From contig CP070633.1 in assembly GCA_020356085.1 (NCBI GenBank), positions 1,570,706 to 1,609,367 of the forward strand: a stretch of 38,662 nt of DNA, given 5' to 3'. A program made the translations under genes and the position numbers. Positions 24,620-30,084 of the stretch are shown piece by piece (the first letter of the stretch is position 1; each line of letters begins with the position of its first letter). The DNA comes from Candidatus Coatesiibacteriota bacterium. Its GTDB lineage: Bacteria > RBG-13-66-14 > B26-G2 > WVWN01. The notes beneath the pieces were generated by a model. The model did not search any database, was not told where the DNA came from, and saw nothing but the letters and a program-made list of their open reading frames with translations.

Positions 24620-24648
24620 TTGACACCCAACATATTGGGGTGTAAAAT
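24620..24648 (+). promoter_or_regulatory. Promoter of the ribonucleotide reductase gene
   Basis: TTGACA (24620-24625), 17 bp, TAAAAT (24643-24648). The leader to the ATG at 24786 is about 130 nt. The two NrdR-like boxes sit in the spacer and at the transcription start. Confidence 0.75.
24625..24640 (+). promoter_or_regulatory. NrdR-like box 1
   Basis: ACCCAACATATTGGGG matches the NrdR box consensus (ACACwATATmTwGTGT, from memory) at about 12 of 16 positions and lies between -35 and -10. Flanks extend it to an ACACCC/GGGTGT inverted repeat. Confidence 0.6.
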
Positions 24649-24672: not shown

Positions 24673-24785
24673 ATGGGGTGGAAGAAGGCCCGGAATAGGC
24701 GTCGTACGGGGAGGCTCCGGGCGCGGCTGTGGGAGCGCCGGTTCGCGGGGGCGGGGGCGCGCAGAGCAAGGGATATCGTTACGTA

Positions 24786-27302
24786 ATGGCGGTTGGAACT
24801 GGAAGGAAAACGGCCCGGGTTAAAGCCCGCCTCCGGGCGCGGGCGTTGCTAAACGAGCAGGGCGTTCGCGGGTCCCAGGCCGAGAAAATTATAATCGAAG
24901 CGTTGGACGAACTCGACGACCGGGGCGATTTTTCGGCCGCCGCGTTGGAGGAGGTCGTCGCGGCCAAAGTGGAGGAGGCCCAGGCCGGCTGGGAGCGGAA
25001 CGTTCCCGCGGAGGGACAAGACGACTGGGAAGAACCTGAGATCGAACTCTCGGCTAACGCCTACGAGGTTCTGACGCGGCGGTATTTACGCCGGGACGCG
25101 GAGGGGAACCCGGTCGAGGAACCGCGGGAGATGTTCTGGCGCGTGGCGTGGGCGGTCGCGGAGGCGGAGCGCAAATACAACCCGATGGCGGACCTCGAAC
25201 CGGTGGCGCGCGAGTTTTTCGGGATCATGGCGCGGCGGGAGTTTATGCCCAACTCGCCGACGCTGATGAACGCGGGCCGGGAGCTGGGCCAGCTCGCGGC
25301 CTGTTTCGTTTTGCCGGTCGAAGACTCGATGGACTCCATTTTCGAGGCCATCAAGGATACGGCGTTGATCCACAAAAGCGGTGGCGGGACCGGCTTCTCG
25401 TTCTCGCGCCTCCGGCCCAAGAACGACGTCGTCATGTCGACCAAGGGCGTCTCCAGCGGCCCCATTTCCTTTATGCAGGTCTTCGACGCCGCCACGGAGG
25501 CGATTAAGCAGGGGGGAACGAGGCGCGGCGCCAATATGGGCATCCTCCGCGTCGACCACCCCGACATCCTGGAGTTCATTACCTGTAAGGCGGAGGAGCA
25601 CCGTTTCAACAATTTCAACATCTCCGTGGCTCTGACGGAAGAGTTCATGACGGCGCTCGCGGACGAGGAGACCTACGCGCTCCTCAATCCGCGCACCGGC
25701 GAGGAGTCCGGCCGCCTCCCCGCGGCCCGCGTATTCTCCCAAATCGTCTCCATGGCCCACGGCAACGGCGAGCCGGGCATTATATTCCTCGACCGCATGA
25801 ACGCCTCTAACCCTACGCCCCACGTCGGCGAGATCGAGTCGACCAATCCCTGCGGCGAGCAGCCGCTGTTGCCCTACGAGTCGTGCAACCTCGGCTCGGT
25901 CAACCTCGGCCTGATGGTCCGGGAGGAGAAGGGCCGGCGCCTCGTCGATTGGGACCGCCTCGCCGGTACCGTCCACACCGCGGTCCGCTTCCTCGACGAC
26001 GTCATCGACGTCAACCGGTACCCGCTTCCCAAGATAGAGGAAAATACGAAGGCCAATCGTAAAATCGGCCTCGGCGTCATGGGCTTCGCCGACCTGTTGA
26101 TCGAACTCGGCCTTCCGTACGATTCCGAGGAGGCGGTGGAGCTCGCCTCCCAGGTGATGGAGTTCGTCGACCTCGAGTCGAAACGGGCCTCCCAACAACT
26201 TGCCGAGGAACGCGGCGTGTTCCCCAACTTCCGCGGCAGCCTCTACGACCGCCCGGGCGGCGCCCGCCTCCGCAACGCGACGACGACGACCGTCGCCCCC
26301 ACCGGGACCATCAGCATTATCGCGGGGGCCTCCAGCGGGATCGAACCGATCTTCGCGCTCTGTTTTTACCGCCGCGTCCTCGACGACGACAAGCTGGTGG
26401 AGGTCAACCCCCTCTTCGCGGCGGCGGCGGAGCACGCCGGCCTGGCCGGCGAGGAGTTATTCGAGGGCCTGGCCCGCGGCGAGTCGATCCAGGAGCGCGA
26501 CGACGTCCCGGAGGAGCTCCAGCGCCTCTTCGTCACGGCCCACGACGTCTCGCCGGAGTGGCACCTCCGCATTCAGGCGGCGTTCCAAAAACACACCGAC
26601 AACGCCGTCTCCAAAACCGTCAATTTCCCCCGCGCCGCGGCGCCCGAAGACGTCGATCGCGCGTACCGGCTCGCGTACGAGCTGGGTTGCAAAGGCGTCA
26701 CCATCTACCGCGACGGCTCGCGTTCGGTGCAAGTGCTGAACGTCGGCACGGCGACGGAGGAGGAGGAGGAAACCGCCCTCCGGGGCCGCGGCGTGGCGCC
26801 GCGGGCGCGCCCGGACGTAACCCACGGCATTACCGAAAAAGTCGCGACCGGGTGCGGGAACCTGTACGTCACGCTCAACTGGGACGAGGAGGGGCTATGC
26901 GAGGTCTTCGCCAAAATGGGCAAGTCCGGCGGCTGCATCTCCTCCCACTCGGAGGCCTCCTCCCGCCTTATCTCGCTCGCGCTGCGGGCGGGCGTGACGG
27001 TGAGGTCCATAGTGAAGCAACTCCGGAGTATTCGGTGCCCGATGCCGACGTGGCAGAACGGCGAGGCCATATTGAGCTGCCCGGACGCTATCGGCATCGT
27101 CATCGAACGCCACATGGCGGCGCGGATGACGCCGCTGTTCGATGCTGCGCCCGCCGAGGAGGAACTGGAGGCGCTCCGGCGCGAGCGGATGTTGAAGGAG
27201 CTCGCCAACATCGGGCCCCAGTGTCCGGAGTGTTCCGGCCTGCTCGAGATTGCGGAAGGTTGTTTAACGTGCCGTTCCTGCGGGTTTACGAGGTGCGGCT
27301 AG
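24786..27302 (+). CDS. nrdJ: Class II (adenosylcobalamin-dependent) ribonucleotide reductase
   Basis: 838 residues from ATG at 24786; an in-frame GTG at 24729 is possible but gives no recognisable sequence. It reduces ribonucleotides to deoxyribonucleotides using a thiyl radical made with B12. Visible: Cys173 ([11 protein letters not shown]) paired with Cys367 ([10 protein letters not shown]), radical residues Asn354-Cys356-Glu358 in [46 protein letters not shown] and [26 protein letters not shown] domain follows ([29 protein letters not shown]), and a zinc-finger end CPEC then CLTCRSCGF carries the redox cysteines. The first 70 residues ([15 protein letters not shown], acidic helices) are not the usual ATP cone. 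Class II use fits a facultative or anaerobic lifestyle. Confidence 0.95.
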
Positions 27303-27344
27303 CGGCTAGGCTAGGCCGCACGAGAGGAGGTGAAAGGACCCGCT

Positions 27345-27419
27345 ATGGGCTGCGCGAAGAAAACTACGAAGAAGAAGACGACGAAGAAAGCTCCAGCTAA
27401 GAAGAAGAAAAAGAAGTAG
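27345..27419 (+). CDS. Lysine-rich microprotein 1 (24 residues)
   Basis: ATG at 27345 opens MGCAKKTTKKKTTKKAPAKK and runs for four more lysines to TAG at 27417-27419. More than half of the residues are lysine. AAGGA (27334-27338) lies 6 nt before the ATG, and GAGAGGAGGTGA (27322-27333) lies further upstream. It starts 42 bp after nrdJ, probably on the same mRNA. The composition is that of histone H1-like nucleic-acid-binding tails. Its reality rests on the ribosome site and on similarity to the two following ORFs. Confidence 0.6.
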   Translation: MGCAKKTTKKKTTKKAPAKKKKKK

Positions 27420-27535
27420 CTTTTCTTACGGCCGGCCCGTCCGCCTCGCCCGATACGTCGCGGCGGGGAGGCCGGGGGGTGCTCGGGCGGCCGCGGGCGG
27501 CTCGTGCCCGGATTTCCCCGGAAGGGGGTGAGACC

Positions 27536-27739
27536 ATGCCCGTAAGAAAGACGGCAGCGAAGAAGACGACGCGGAAAAAGGCGGCGACGAAGAAGAAGGC
27601 TCCGGCCAAGAAGAAGACCACGGCCCGGAAAACCGCTGCTAAGAAGAAGACTACCGCTAGGAAAACCACGGCTCGGAAGAAAGCCCCGGCCAAGAAGAAG
27701 ACCACGGCCCGGAAAAGGACGACGACGCGTAAGAAGTAA
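27536..27739 (+). CDS. Histone H1-like lysine/alanine-rich protein
   Basis: 67 residues from ATG at 27536, preceded by GGAAGGGGGTGAGACC. The whole protein is built of repeats such as KKTTARKTAAKK, KAPAKKKTTARK and TTRKK, like the C-terminal domains of eukaryotic histone H1 and chlamydial HctB. It should be disordered and bind DNA or RNA non-specifically. An in-frame earlier start at 27479 would add 19 residues of unlike composition and ignore the ribosome site. The KAPAKK unit also ends microprotein 1, so the genes are related. The codons are repetitive (AAG AAG, GCC CGG), so slippage can change the repeat number. Confidence 0.8.
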   Translation: MPVRKTAAKKTTRKKAATKKKAPAKKKTTARKTAAKKKTTARKTTARKKAPAKKKTTARKRTTTRKK

Positions 27740-27764
27740 CTAGGCCGCAGCGGCAGGTGCCGCG

Positions 27765-27784
27765 GGGGCCGCCTAGGCGGCCCC
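27765..27784. repeat. 20-bp perfect palindrome after the H1-like gene
   Basis: GGGGCCGCC-TA-GGCGGCCCC. A second hairpin CCTTCC/GGGAAGG (27783-27802) follows, and seven T (27810-27816) come 7 nt later. It may terminate the H1-like gene. The T run overlaps the next promoter's -35. Confidence 0.5.
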
Positions 27785-27814
27785 TTCCGTATCGAGGGAA
27801 GGCGTACGATTTTT

Positions 27815-27843
27815 TTGCACGGACGCTCTTTTTCTGCTATACT
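27815..27843 (+). promoter_or_regulatory. Promoter of a structured transcript ending in microprotein 3
   Basis: TTGCAC (27815-27820), 17 bp, TATACT (27838-27843). It drives transcription through 27850-28126. Confidence 0.75.
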
Positions 27844-27849
27844 AACGCG

Positions 27850-28024
27850 TAGTGGCGCTGGTGGAGTCCTGAATTAGGGCTTGGCCGGCGCCTAATAAGT
27901 GAGGGCTTCCCGAACCCCTTTGGCCCGGTTTGAGGGGAGAAGGTTGCCTGCAACGTTCGCTTAATTGCGGGTCGACGGCGCGGCCGGCAATGGCCGGCGG
28001 CGCGAGAGGAGGTGAGTGCCCGCA
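27850..28024 (+). ncRNA. Structured RNA leader or non-coding RNA, family unknown
   Basis: About 175 nt between a clear promoter and the 16-residue ORF at 28025. Self-complementary pieces include AGTCCT/AGGGCT (27875-27891, loop GAATT), CCCCT/AGGGG (27915-27936), GTTG-CCTG-CAAC (27943-27954) and GCCGGC-AATG-GCCGGC (27983-27998) just before the ribosome site GAGGAGG. The length would suit 6S RNA or a riboswitch, but none of the conserved motifs I know (6S, RNase P, SRP, tmRNA, SAM, cobalamin) is present. It could be a small RNA whose 3' part encodes a peptide. Confidence 0.4.
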
Positions 28025-28075
28025 ATGGCGACCAAGAAGAAGTCGAAGACCAAGAAATCGACGCCTAAGAAGTAG
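28025..28075 (+). CDS. Lysine-rich microprotein 3 (16 residues)
   Basis: ATG at 28025 encodes MATKKKSKTKKSTPKK and stops at TAG (28073-28075). Upstream is the same GAGAGGAGGTGA block (28004-28015) that precedes microprotein 1, again followed by CCCGC and one base before the ATG, which argues for a shared origin and real translation. An intrinsic terminator follows 24 bp later. Function unknown; polycationic and likely nucleic-acid-binding. Confidence 0.5.
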   Translation: MATKKKSKTKKSTPKK

Positions 28076-28098: not shown

Positions 28099-28126
28099 GC
28101 CGCCCTCCGGGGCGGCGTTTTTATTA
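28099..28126 (+). terminator. Intrinsic terminator after microprotein 3
   Basis: Stem GCCGCCC (28099-28105), loop TCCG, stem GGGCGGC (28110-28116), then a T-rich run (28118-28126). Confidence 0.85.
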
Positions 28127-28162: not shown

Positions 28163-28171
28163 TGTTATAAT
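28163..28171 (+). promoter_or_regulatory. Extended -10 promoter of the methyltransferase/MTHFR gene
   Basis: TGTTATAAT is an extended -10 (TG-N-TATAAT, the hexamer at 28166-28171). No good -35 is visible at 17 bp. The leader is about 55 nt and lacks SAM- or B12-riboswitch motifs. Confidence 0.6.
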
Positions 28172-28233: not shown

Positions 28234-30084
28234 ATGTTCGACCAGACGCTACAGGAATATCTCGCGACCCGCGTCCTCCTCGCGGACGGCGCGATGGGCA
28301 CTTATTTGTACGCCCGCGGCGCCGAGCCCGGGCGGTGCCTGGAGGAGCTCAACGTTACGCGCCCCGACGTCGTCGCCGCCGTCCACCGGGAATACCTCGC
28401 CGCCGGCGCGCGCCTCCTGGAGACCAACACCTATTCGGCCAACGGCGTCAAGCTCGAGCGGTACGGCCTCGCCGCGCGCGTCGCCGAGTTGAACGAGCGC
28501 GCCGCGGCCCTTGCGCGGGAGGCCGTCGGCGAGGCGGAGGCGTTCGTCGGTGGGTCGGTGGGGCCGCTGGGCGCGGCGCTCAAGCCGTTCGGGTATCTTT
28601 CGGAGGAGGAGGCCCGGGCGTTTTTCCGCGCTCAGATGGCGGGGCTGCTGGAGGGCGACGTCGACCTCGCCGTCGTCGAGACGATGTCGTCGCTGGCGGA
28701 GGCGGAGCTGGCGCTGGCGGTATGGCGGGAGTTGACGGACCGGCCCGCGCTCGTGTCGCTTACGTTCCTTCCGGATGGCACGACGAAGTTCGGCGACGAC
28801 GTCGCCGTCGCGTTCCAAACGCTGGTGCGCGCGGGCGCCGACGTCGTCGGCTTGAACTGCAACCTCGGCCCCAAAGAGACCTACGACCTCCTTACCGAGC
28901 GGATCGCGGCCGAGCCGCCGCCCCCTAACTCGTGGTTCGTTAGCGCGATGCCGAACGCGGGCTATCCGGCCGACGACCGCGGCCGGCCCGTCTACGGCGC
29001 CACGCCCGAATATTTCGGCGAGTACGCCCGCCTGTTCGCGCAGGCCGGCGTCCGCGTCGTCGGCGGCTGTTGCGGGACGACGCCGCGCCACGTGGCCGCC
29101 ATGGCGGAGGCGCTCGCGGAGGAGGCCGCGCCGCCGCCGCGCCTCGCCGTCGCCGCCGCCGGTCCGCCGGCGGAGCGGGCCGTCGTCGTGGAGGCGCCGG
29201 TTGAACGCCGGGGATTAGCCGACAAACTCGGCCGCGAGTTCGTCGTGACCGTGGAGGTCGACCCGCCGCGGGGTCCGGATTACGGCCGCGCGTTGGAGGC
29301 CGCGGCCCGCCTCCGGGACCTCGGCGTCGACGCCGTCAACGTCGCGGACAATCCGCTGGCGCGCGTCCGGATGTCGTCGGTCGCCCTGGCGCACATTATC
29401 CAGGCCGAAGTCGGCCTGGAGCCCATCCTCCACTTCACCTGCCGCGACCGGAACCTCCTCGGCCTGCAATCCGAACTCGTCGGCGCGGCCGCGTTGGGCA
29501 TCCGCACGCTCCTCGCGTTGACCGGCGACCCCTCCGAGGTCGGCGACTACCCGAAGGCCAAGTCCGTATTCGATCTCGACTCCACCGGCCTGGTGGGCCT
29601 GGTCGCGAAGTTGCGGTCGGGAACCGATCTCTCCGGCAAGCCGATCGGCGAGCCGTTCGAGATGACCGTGGGCGTGGCGCTCAACCCCGGCGCGGCCGAC
29701 CCCGCGCGGGAATCCGAGCGGCTCGGCGAAAAGGTCGAGGCCGGCGCCGACTTCGCGATGACGCAGCCGTTCTACGATCCCGCCGTGTGGCTCAAATTCC
29801 TGGAGCGGTACGGCGAGCCGCCGATCCCCGCGATCGTGGGGCTGTTGCCCTTCCGGACCTTCCGCCACGCGCAGTTCCTGCACTACGAGGTCCCCGGCAT
29901 CGACGTCCCGCCGGAGGCGCTGCAGCGGATGGAGGAGGCCGCCGCCCGCGGCAAGGAGGCGGAGGCCGCGGAGGGCGTGGCCCTCGCGCGCGAAATACTG
30001 GCGCGGGTACGGGAGGCGTGCGCCGGCGTGTACGTCGTGCCGCCGTTCGGGAACGTCGACGTCGTGGCGGAGGTGCTGGCCTAA
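28234..30084 (+). CDS. Bifunctional homocysteine S-methyltransferase / 5,10-methylenetetrahydrofolate reductase
   Basis: 616 residues. Residues 1-290 are a zinc homocysteine methyltransferase domain (LLADGAMGTYLYARG, LLETNTYSANGVKL) with the zinc cysteines Cys209 (GLNCNLGP) and Cys279-Cys280 (VVGGCCGTTPRH). Residues 315-616 are the FAD-dependent MTHFR barrel (FVVTVEVDPPRGPDYGRAL, CRDRNLLGLQSELVGAAALG, LALTGDPSEVGDYP, ADFAMTQPFYDP). The layout equals the B. subtilis YitJ-type fusion. It makes methyl-THF and may move the methyl group to homocysteine, feeding methionine synthesis downstream of glyA. The B12-binding and activation domains of full MetH are absent, so a separate corrinoid protein may be needed. 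Confidence 0.94.
   Translation: MFDQTLQEYLATRVLLADGAMGTYLYARGAEPGRCLEELNVTRPDVVAAVHREYLAAGARLLETNTYSANGVKLERYGLAARVAELNERAAALAREAVGEAEAFVGGSVGPLGAALKPFGYLSEEEARAFFRAQMAGLLEGDVDLAVVETMSSLAEAELALAVWRELTDRPALVSLTFLPDGTTKFGDDVAVAFQTLVRAGADVVGLNCNLGPKETYDLLTERIAAEPPPPNSWFVSAMPNAGYPADDRGRPVYGATPEYFGEYARLFAQAGVRVVGGCCGTTPRHVAAMAEALAEEAAPPPRLAVAAAGPPAERAVVVEAPVERRGLADKLGREFVVTVEVDPPRGPDYGRALEAAARLRDLGVDAVNVADNPLARVRMSSVALAHIIQAEVGLEPILHFTCRDRNLLGLQSELVGAAALGIRTLLALTGDPSEVGDYPKAKSVFDLDSTGLVGLVAKLRSGTDLSGKPIGEPFEMTVGVALNPGAADPARESERLGEKVEAGADFAMTQPFYDPAVWLKFLERYGEPPIPAIVGLLPFRTFRHAQFLHYEVPGIDVPPEALQRMEEAAARGKEAEAAEGVALAREILARVREACAGVYVVPPFGNVDVVAEVLA

Follow-up and report, generated by a model that had tools for sequence, protein, structure and literature searches.

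Lysine-rich low-complexity regions of prokaryotic proteins have been linked to the binding of both DNA and RNA (PMC6821194), and chlamydial Hc2 and Bordetella BpH1 vary in length from one relative to another through the gain and loss of repeats (PMC2848022). Here we describe three short lysine-rich open reading frames (ORF1, ORF2 and ORF3) of Candidatus Coatesiibacteriota bacterium, for which Hc2 (HctB) and BpH1, both histone H1-like and lysine-rich, appear by analogy to be the nearest known designs. The literature yielded nothing relevant on histone-like peptides of this kind that are linked to nrdJ or come from Zixibacteria. We analysed a 38,662-nt stretch (henceforth 'the window') of the source genome, a single contig of 2.34 Mb (G000), and compared it with the sister species G001, G002 and G003 of the same genus.

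A cluster of short reading frames behind nrdJ

The three ORFs lie on the + strand between nrdJ and a fusion gene of the metH/metF type. The initial annotation had reported lysine-rich frames of 24, 67 and 16 residues here, and all three proved to be there just as it had stated; it had also pointed out correctly that two of them (24 and 16 residues) fall under the usual annotation size. The features of the locus are:

24623..24643, no strand: 21-bp palindrome ACACCCAACATATTGGGGTGT (also given as ACACCCAAYATRTTGKGGTGT) within the promoter of nrdJ, resembling an NrdR box; present once in each genome for 4/4 species of the genus
24729..27302, + strand: nrdJ, adenosylcobalamin-dependent ribonucleotide reductase (NCBIfam NF006417, 1207 bits; TIGR02504, 732 bits; both over cut-off)
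27345..27419, + strand: ORF1, Lys-rich 24-residue microprotein MGCAKKTTKKKTTKKAPAKKKKKK; G001 and G002 have a 24-residue ORF at the equivalent place, G003 a decayed one
27536..27739, + strand: ORF2, 67-residue protein rich in Lys, Arg, Thr and Ala, net charge +32; same place in four species
27765..27784, + strand: stem-loop GGGGCCGCCTAGGCGGCCCC 3' of ORF2, likely end of an nrdJ-ORF1-ORF2 operon; equivalents with changed loops after ORF2 in G001-G003
28025..28075, + strand: ORF3, Lys-rich 16-residue microprotein MATKKKSKTKKSTPKK; counterpart MATKKKSKPKKTTPKK in G001
28166..28171, + strand: TATAAT, putative -10 box from which the downstream gene would be transcribed separately; TATAAT likewise stands before the next gene in G001-G003
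28234..30084, + strand: bifunctional homocysteine S-methyltransferase / methylenetetrahydrofolate reductase (NCBIfam NF006396, 677 bits, over cut-off)

ORF1 starts 42 nt after the nrdJ stop, and a further 116 nt separate ORF1 from the start of ORF2. In G001 all three ORFs are found in unchanged order (24, 56 and 16 residues). In G002 ORF1 (24 residues) and ORF2 (68 residues) are followed directly by the fusion gene and ORF3 is absent, and in G003 ORF2 (68 residues) remains next to a decayed ORF1 region, the downstream gene differs and ORF3 was not seen at the locus. ORF2 is found in 4/4 genus genomes examined (67, 56, 68 and 68 residues), ORF1 in three of the four, always with 24 residues, and ORF3 in two (G000 and G001), with 16 residues in each. 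Conservation of frame in relatives, on which the initial annotation had staked its proposal, was found. Distant phylum members carry no such ORFs behind nrdJ in the available stretches, some of which end at contig ends or a gap, and a search for wider relatives by the C-terminus of nrdJ matched only two sister genomes and two distant genomes. In the nearest outgroup (G004) nrdJ runs into an assembly gap (L051:285-384), and the nrdJ match of G002 (G002:C95:20928-23495) contains one internal TAG, which may reflect either an error in the MAG sequence or a genuine interruption.

This arrangement suggests that ORF1 and ORF2 form the tail of an nrdJ operon and would be produced together with deoxynucleotide synthesis. 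The 20-nt stem-loop behind ORF2 is perfect and has counterparts in all three sister species; because it carries no T run, we infer, rather than recognize, its role as a terminator. In each of the four species some 85-105 bp separate the palindrome from the nrdJ match downstream of it, and the palindrome may be an NrdR box that controls the operon. About 31 bp downstream of it lies a second half resembling ACACGATATG, which suggests paired NrdR boxes.

ORF2 is preceded by the Shine-Dalgarno (SD) sequence GGAAGGGGGTGA, unlike the leader of ORF1 and ORF3, and is built of tandem units of 15-18, 33 and 84 bp. Alignment of the G000 and G003 copies revealed a synonymous excess (P about 0.0005), and plasmids gave no match to ORF2. 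ORF1 (net charge +13) retains its length and its Lys, Thr and Ala content across the species carrying it; its residue conservation alone was not above random substitution (P 0.16, G001 versus G002).

The ORF3 mini-gene and the leader element shared with ORF1

ORF3 (net charge +8) is accompanied by signals of its own, and a predicted RNA element precedes both ORF1 and ORF3:

27280..27347, + strand: ORF1 RNA element; stem GCGGGT 27280-27285 / ACCCGC 27338-27343, hairpin 27294-27320, SD 27322-27333, AUG 27345 (MFE folds, 3 species; model R1, 92 bits)
27814..27843, + strand: predicted promoter of the ORF3 mini-gene, TTTGCA-18-TATACT with extended -10; sole promoter-like site in 1.1 kb, TTTGCA...TTTTTCTGCTATA kept in G001
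27844..27962, + strand: 5' portion of the ORF3 leader; no conservation (the alignment scored -8.5, less than shuffled controls)
27964..28027, + strand: ORF3 RNA element; stem AUUGCGGG 27964-27971 / CCCGCAAU 28019-28026, hairpin, SD 28004-28015, AUG 28025 (model R1, 72 bits; G001 counterpart, 77 bits)
28099..28121, + strand: predicted intrinsic terminator of the ORF3 mini-gene; 91% identical in G001, similar sequences elsewhere in the genome

The ORF3 copies of G000 and G001 differ at 13 of 51 bases, nine of them third positions, and 14 of the 16 residues are kept, with one Ser-to-Ser change that involves all three bases. When the same number of changes was placed at random, such conservation with an open frame had a simulated P of about 5e-6. 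Values of pN and pS were 0.12 and 0.80, respectively, and the alternative frames keep 6/16 residues, with stops in one of the two. This pattern of change clearly points to purifying coding selection on ORF3. We also considered whether the ORF3 transcript, which has a leader of ~180 nt in total, is a known RNA (6S, tmRNA or riboswitch) and rejected this: Rfam 15 returned no matches in the window and only matches below the gathering score for the locus and its G001 counterpart, no tmRNA was found, and the upstream leader is unconserved.

Exact copies of GAGAGGAGGTGA, the SD part of the element, stand at 27322 and 28004, against 0.12 matches expected in the window (at most one mismatch). G000 holds three copies of GAGAGGAGGTGA in its 2.34 Mb, two of them at the starts of ORF1 and ORF3, and both copies in G001 are at these starts. 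The initial annotation had noted GAGAGGAGGTGA and a CCCGC-N-ATG junction common to two ORFs, and these do mark ORF1 and ORF3. Its wider picture of a leader for the whole cluster holds, with conservation, for these two and fails for ORF2 with its different SD. A repeat that it had also listed, CTAGGCCGCA, is present at 27311 and 27740 in G000, yet nothing can be demonstrated for it, and we attribute it to chance because it is unconserved in the sister species.

The complete element spans 64-71 nt (GCGGG stem, hairpin, SD and CCCGC-N-AUG) and precedes only ORF1 and ORF3. In 5/5 copies the predicted MFE fold is closed by a GCGGG/CCCGC stem beside the AUG, encloses a hairpin and leaves most of the SD unpaired; part of the SD is paired in the predicted fold of the G001 ORF3 copy, and the G000 stem is less certain when folded in longer context. 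Stem pairing is consistent, but covariation across the five sequences did not exceed that of shuffles. In 14 phylum genomes, covariance model R1 gave strong matches only at the leader sites of ORF1 and ORF3; next came the decayed G003 copy (34.6 bits), and the remainder, at 25 bits or less, look like chance. Searches elsewhere in the genomes for further leader copies or SD-led KKK short ORFs returned none that belongs to the ORF1-3 family.

In the ORF1 element, the last nrdJ codons (Cys-Gly-Phe) make up the 5' strand of the stem. Since the G001 ORF3 leader retains TTGCGGGTTTAC, 12 bases identical to the terminal coding sequence of nrdJ, ORF3 was most likely born by duplication of the nrdJ-end/ORF1 junction, the copy of which would have become an independent mini-gene equipped with a promoter and a terminator. 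The survival of both stem strands after the duplication, set against an upstream leader in which no similarity is recognizable any more, favours a role for the stem. We propose that translation of ORF1 and ORF3 is set by the leader, in which the stem would hold the bases just 5' of the AUG and leave the SD mostly open, and that at ORF1 the ribosomes completing nrdJ would open the stem and thereby couple translation. A bolder version, to which we attach little probability, would make the duplicated nrdJ 3'-end element a module devoted to controlling the translation of polylysine microproteins; the peptides might bind it themselves in a feedback loop, and it would co-regulate ORF1 and ORF3 and so match the supply of nucleic-acid counter-ions with DNA synthesis.

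What the peptides may be

At the level of sequence, the retention of place and reading frame, the purifying selection seen on ORF3 and the restriction of the leader element to ORF1 and ORF3 indicate that the three ORFs are real, conserved, lineage-restricted microprotein genes, two of which (ORF1 and ORF3) have a common structured start region. The peptides are most likely disordered, H1-tail-like polycations that bind DNA or RNA and would act as counter-ions with no sequence specificity; this reading is drawn from composition only, which is itself no proof of binding. We regard as reasonably probable the account as a whole, that is, a genus-restricted family of polycations, encoded by an nrdJ operon tail and a duplicated mini-gene, with translation set by the leader and a function as nucleic-acid counter-ions.

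ORF1 and ORF3 might instead go untranslated or be dispensable, as by-products in the form of drifting low-complexity AAG tracts near real SDs; the loss of ORF1 in G003, the lack of ORF3 in G002 and the poor residue-by-residue conservation of ORF1 speak for this. The coding signature of ORF3 (P about 5e-6), together with the fixed lengths, strong SD and conserved promoter and terminator, makes such a reading very doubtful. A different proposal would see in ORF3, and perhaps ORF1, an attenuation leader peptide, with stalling at Lys or Thr codons choosing between the terminator and read-through into the methionine/folate gene; ORF3 does have eight Lys codons, an intrinsic terminator directly behind it and then a biosynthetic gene. 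However, in G000 and G001 a TATAAT promoter-like site of its own precedes the downstream gene past the terminator, and in G002 this gene occurs without ORF3. No conserved antiterminator was seen between the ORF3 stop and the terminator (spacer 39% identical, G000 versus G001), ORF1 has the leader but no terminator, and the amino-acid identity of the whole ORF3 peptide through synonymous change exceeds what codon content would need. We consider attenuation highly improbable.

The peptides could also be lineage-specific ribosomal or ribosome-associated microproteins that do not bind DNA, given that some genuine basic bacterial peptides of 24-30 residues are ribosomal, bS22 for example, and that lysine-rich low-complexity regions bind RNA as well (PMC6821194, PMC10618245). 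Yet ORF1 and ORF2 had no match among solved chains, bS22 chains included (the 16-residue ORF3 is too short for this search), a separate 29-residue bS22 is present elsewhere in the genus, and low-complexity repeats that change in length are a poor fit to a defined rRNA pocket. A ribosomal role is unlikely, and both the attenuation and the bS22 readings are disfavoured relative to the polycation account.

Other short basic peptides were encountered in the phylum. The 29-residue peptide MGCPKKKKRKKIAKHKRKKKSRANRHKKK (L081:1509-1598 in G003; also L121, L123, L127 and G000:C1:1723738-1723761 on the - strand) matches the bS22 chains 7jil_5 (E 5.5e-5) and 8fmw_V, its core pattern occurs once per genome in 8/14 phylum genomes, and this bS22-like peptide probably often goes unannotated. 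A short basic 24-residue ORF, MPKKRAKKKAKKGVGSLS..., follows GGTGA in three other phylum genomes (L072, L074 and L087, each at 1511) and may belong to some other feature of the opposite strand.

If the polycation account is right, H1-tail-like polycations can occur as free microproteins linked to deoxynucleotide synthesis. A 16-codon gene with promoter, leader and terminator could be recognized in an uncultured bacterium from comparative evidence alone, and similar genes may be widely missed because they fall below annotation limits and are subject to low-complexity filters.

Comparison with known systems

Attenuator leader peptides share with this locus a short ORF, a repeated codon type and a downstream terminator; they differ in that here the downstream gene has a separate promoter-like site, no conserved antiterminator was seen and the peptide sequence is conserved. 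The likeness to bS22 (mS38/AURKAIP1-like) is one of very short length and of about half Lys/Arg, whereas the fixed sequence motif of bS22 is absent from ORF1-3. We know of no nrdJ linkage or structured leader for Hc2 or BpH1, and Hc2 has 165-237 residues compared with 56-68 in ORF2, 24 in ORF1 and 16 in ORF3. The histone-H1-like character that the initial annotation had suggested was not borne out by the Hc2 profiles, since ORF2 scored far below the curated cut-offs of Pfam PF07382 (12.7 versus 40 bits) and of NCBIfam NF038052 and NF038053 (16.1 versus 135 and 15.2 versus 80 bits), so that ORF2 at most works like Hc2 and BpH1. Composition-matched shuffles of ORF2 gave no Hc2 match, and its resemblance is therefore slightly more than composition. 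The likeness itself consists of short repeats that combine Lys/Arg with Ala, Thr and Pro, and ORF2 shows the Hc2-type trait of Lys-rich repeat units containing Ala, Thr and Pro that vary in length (56-68 residues in four species).
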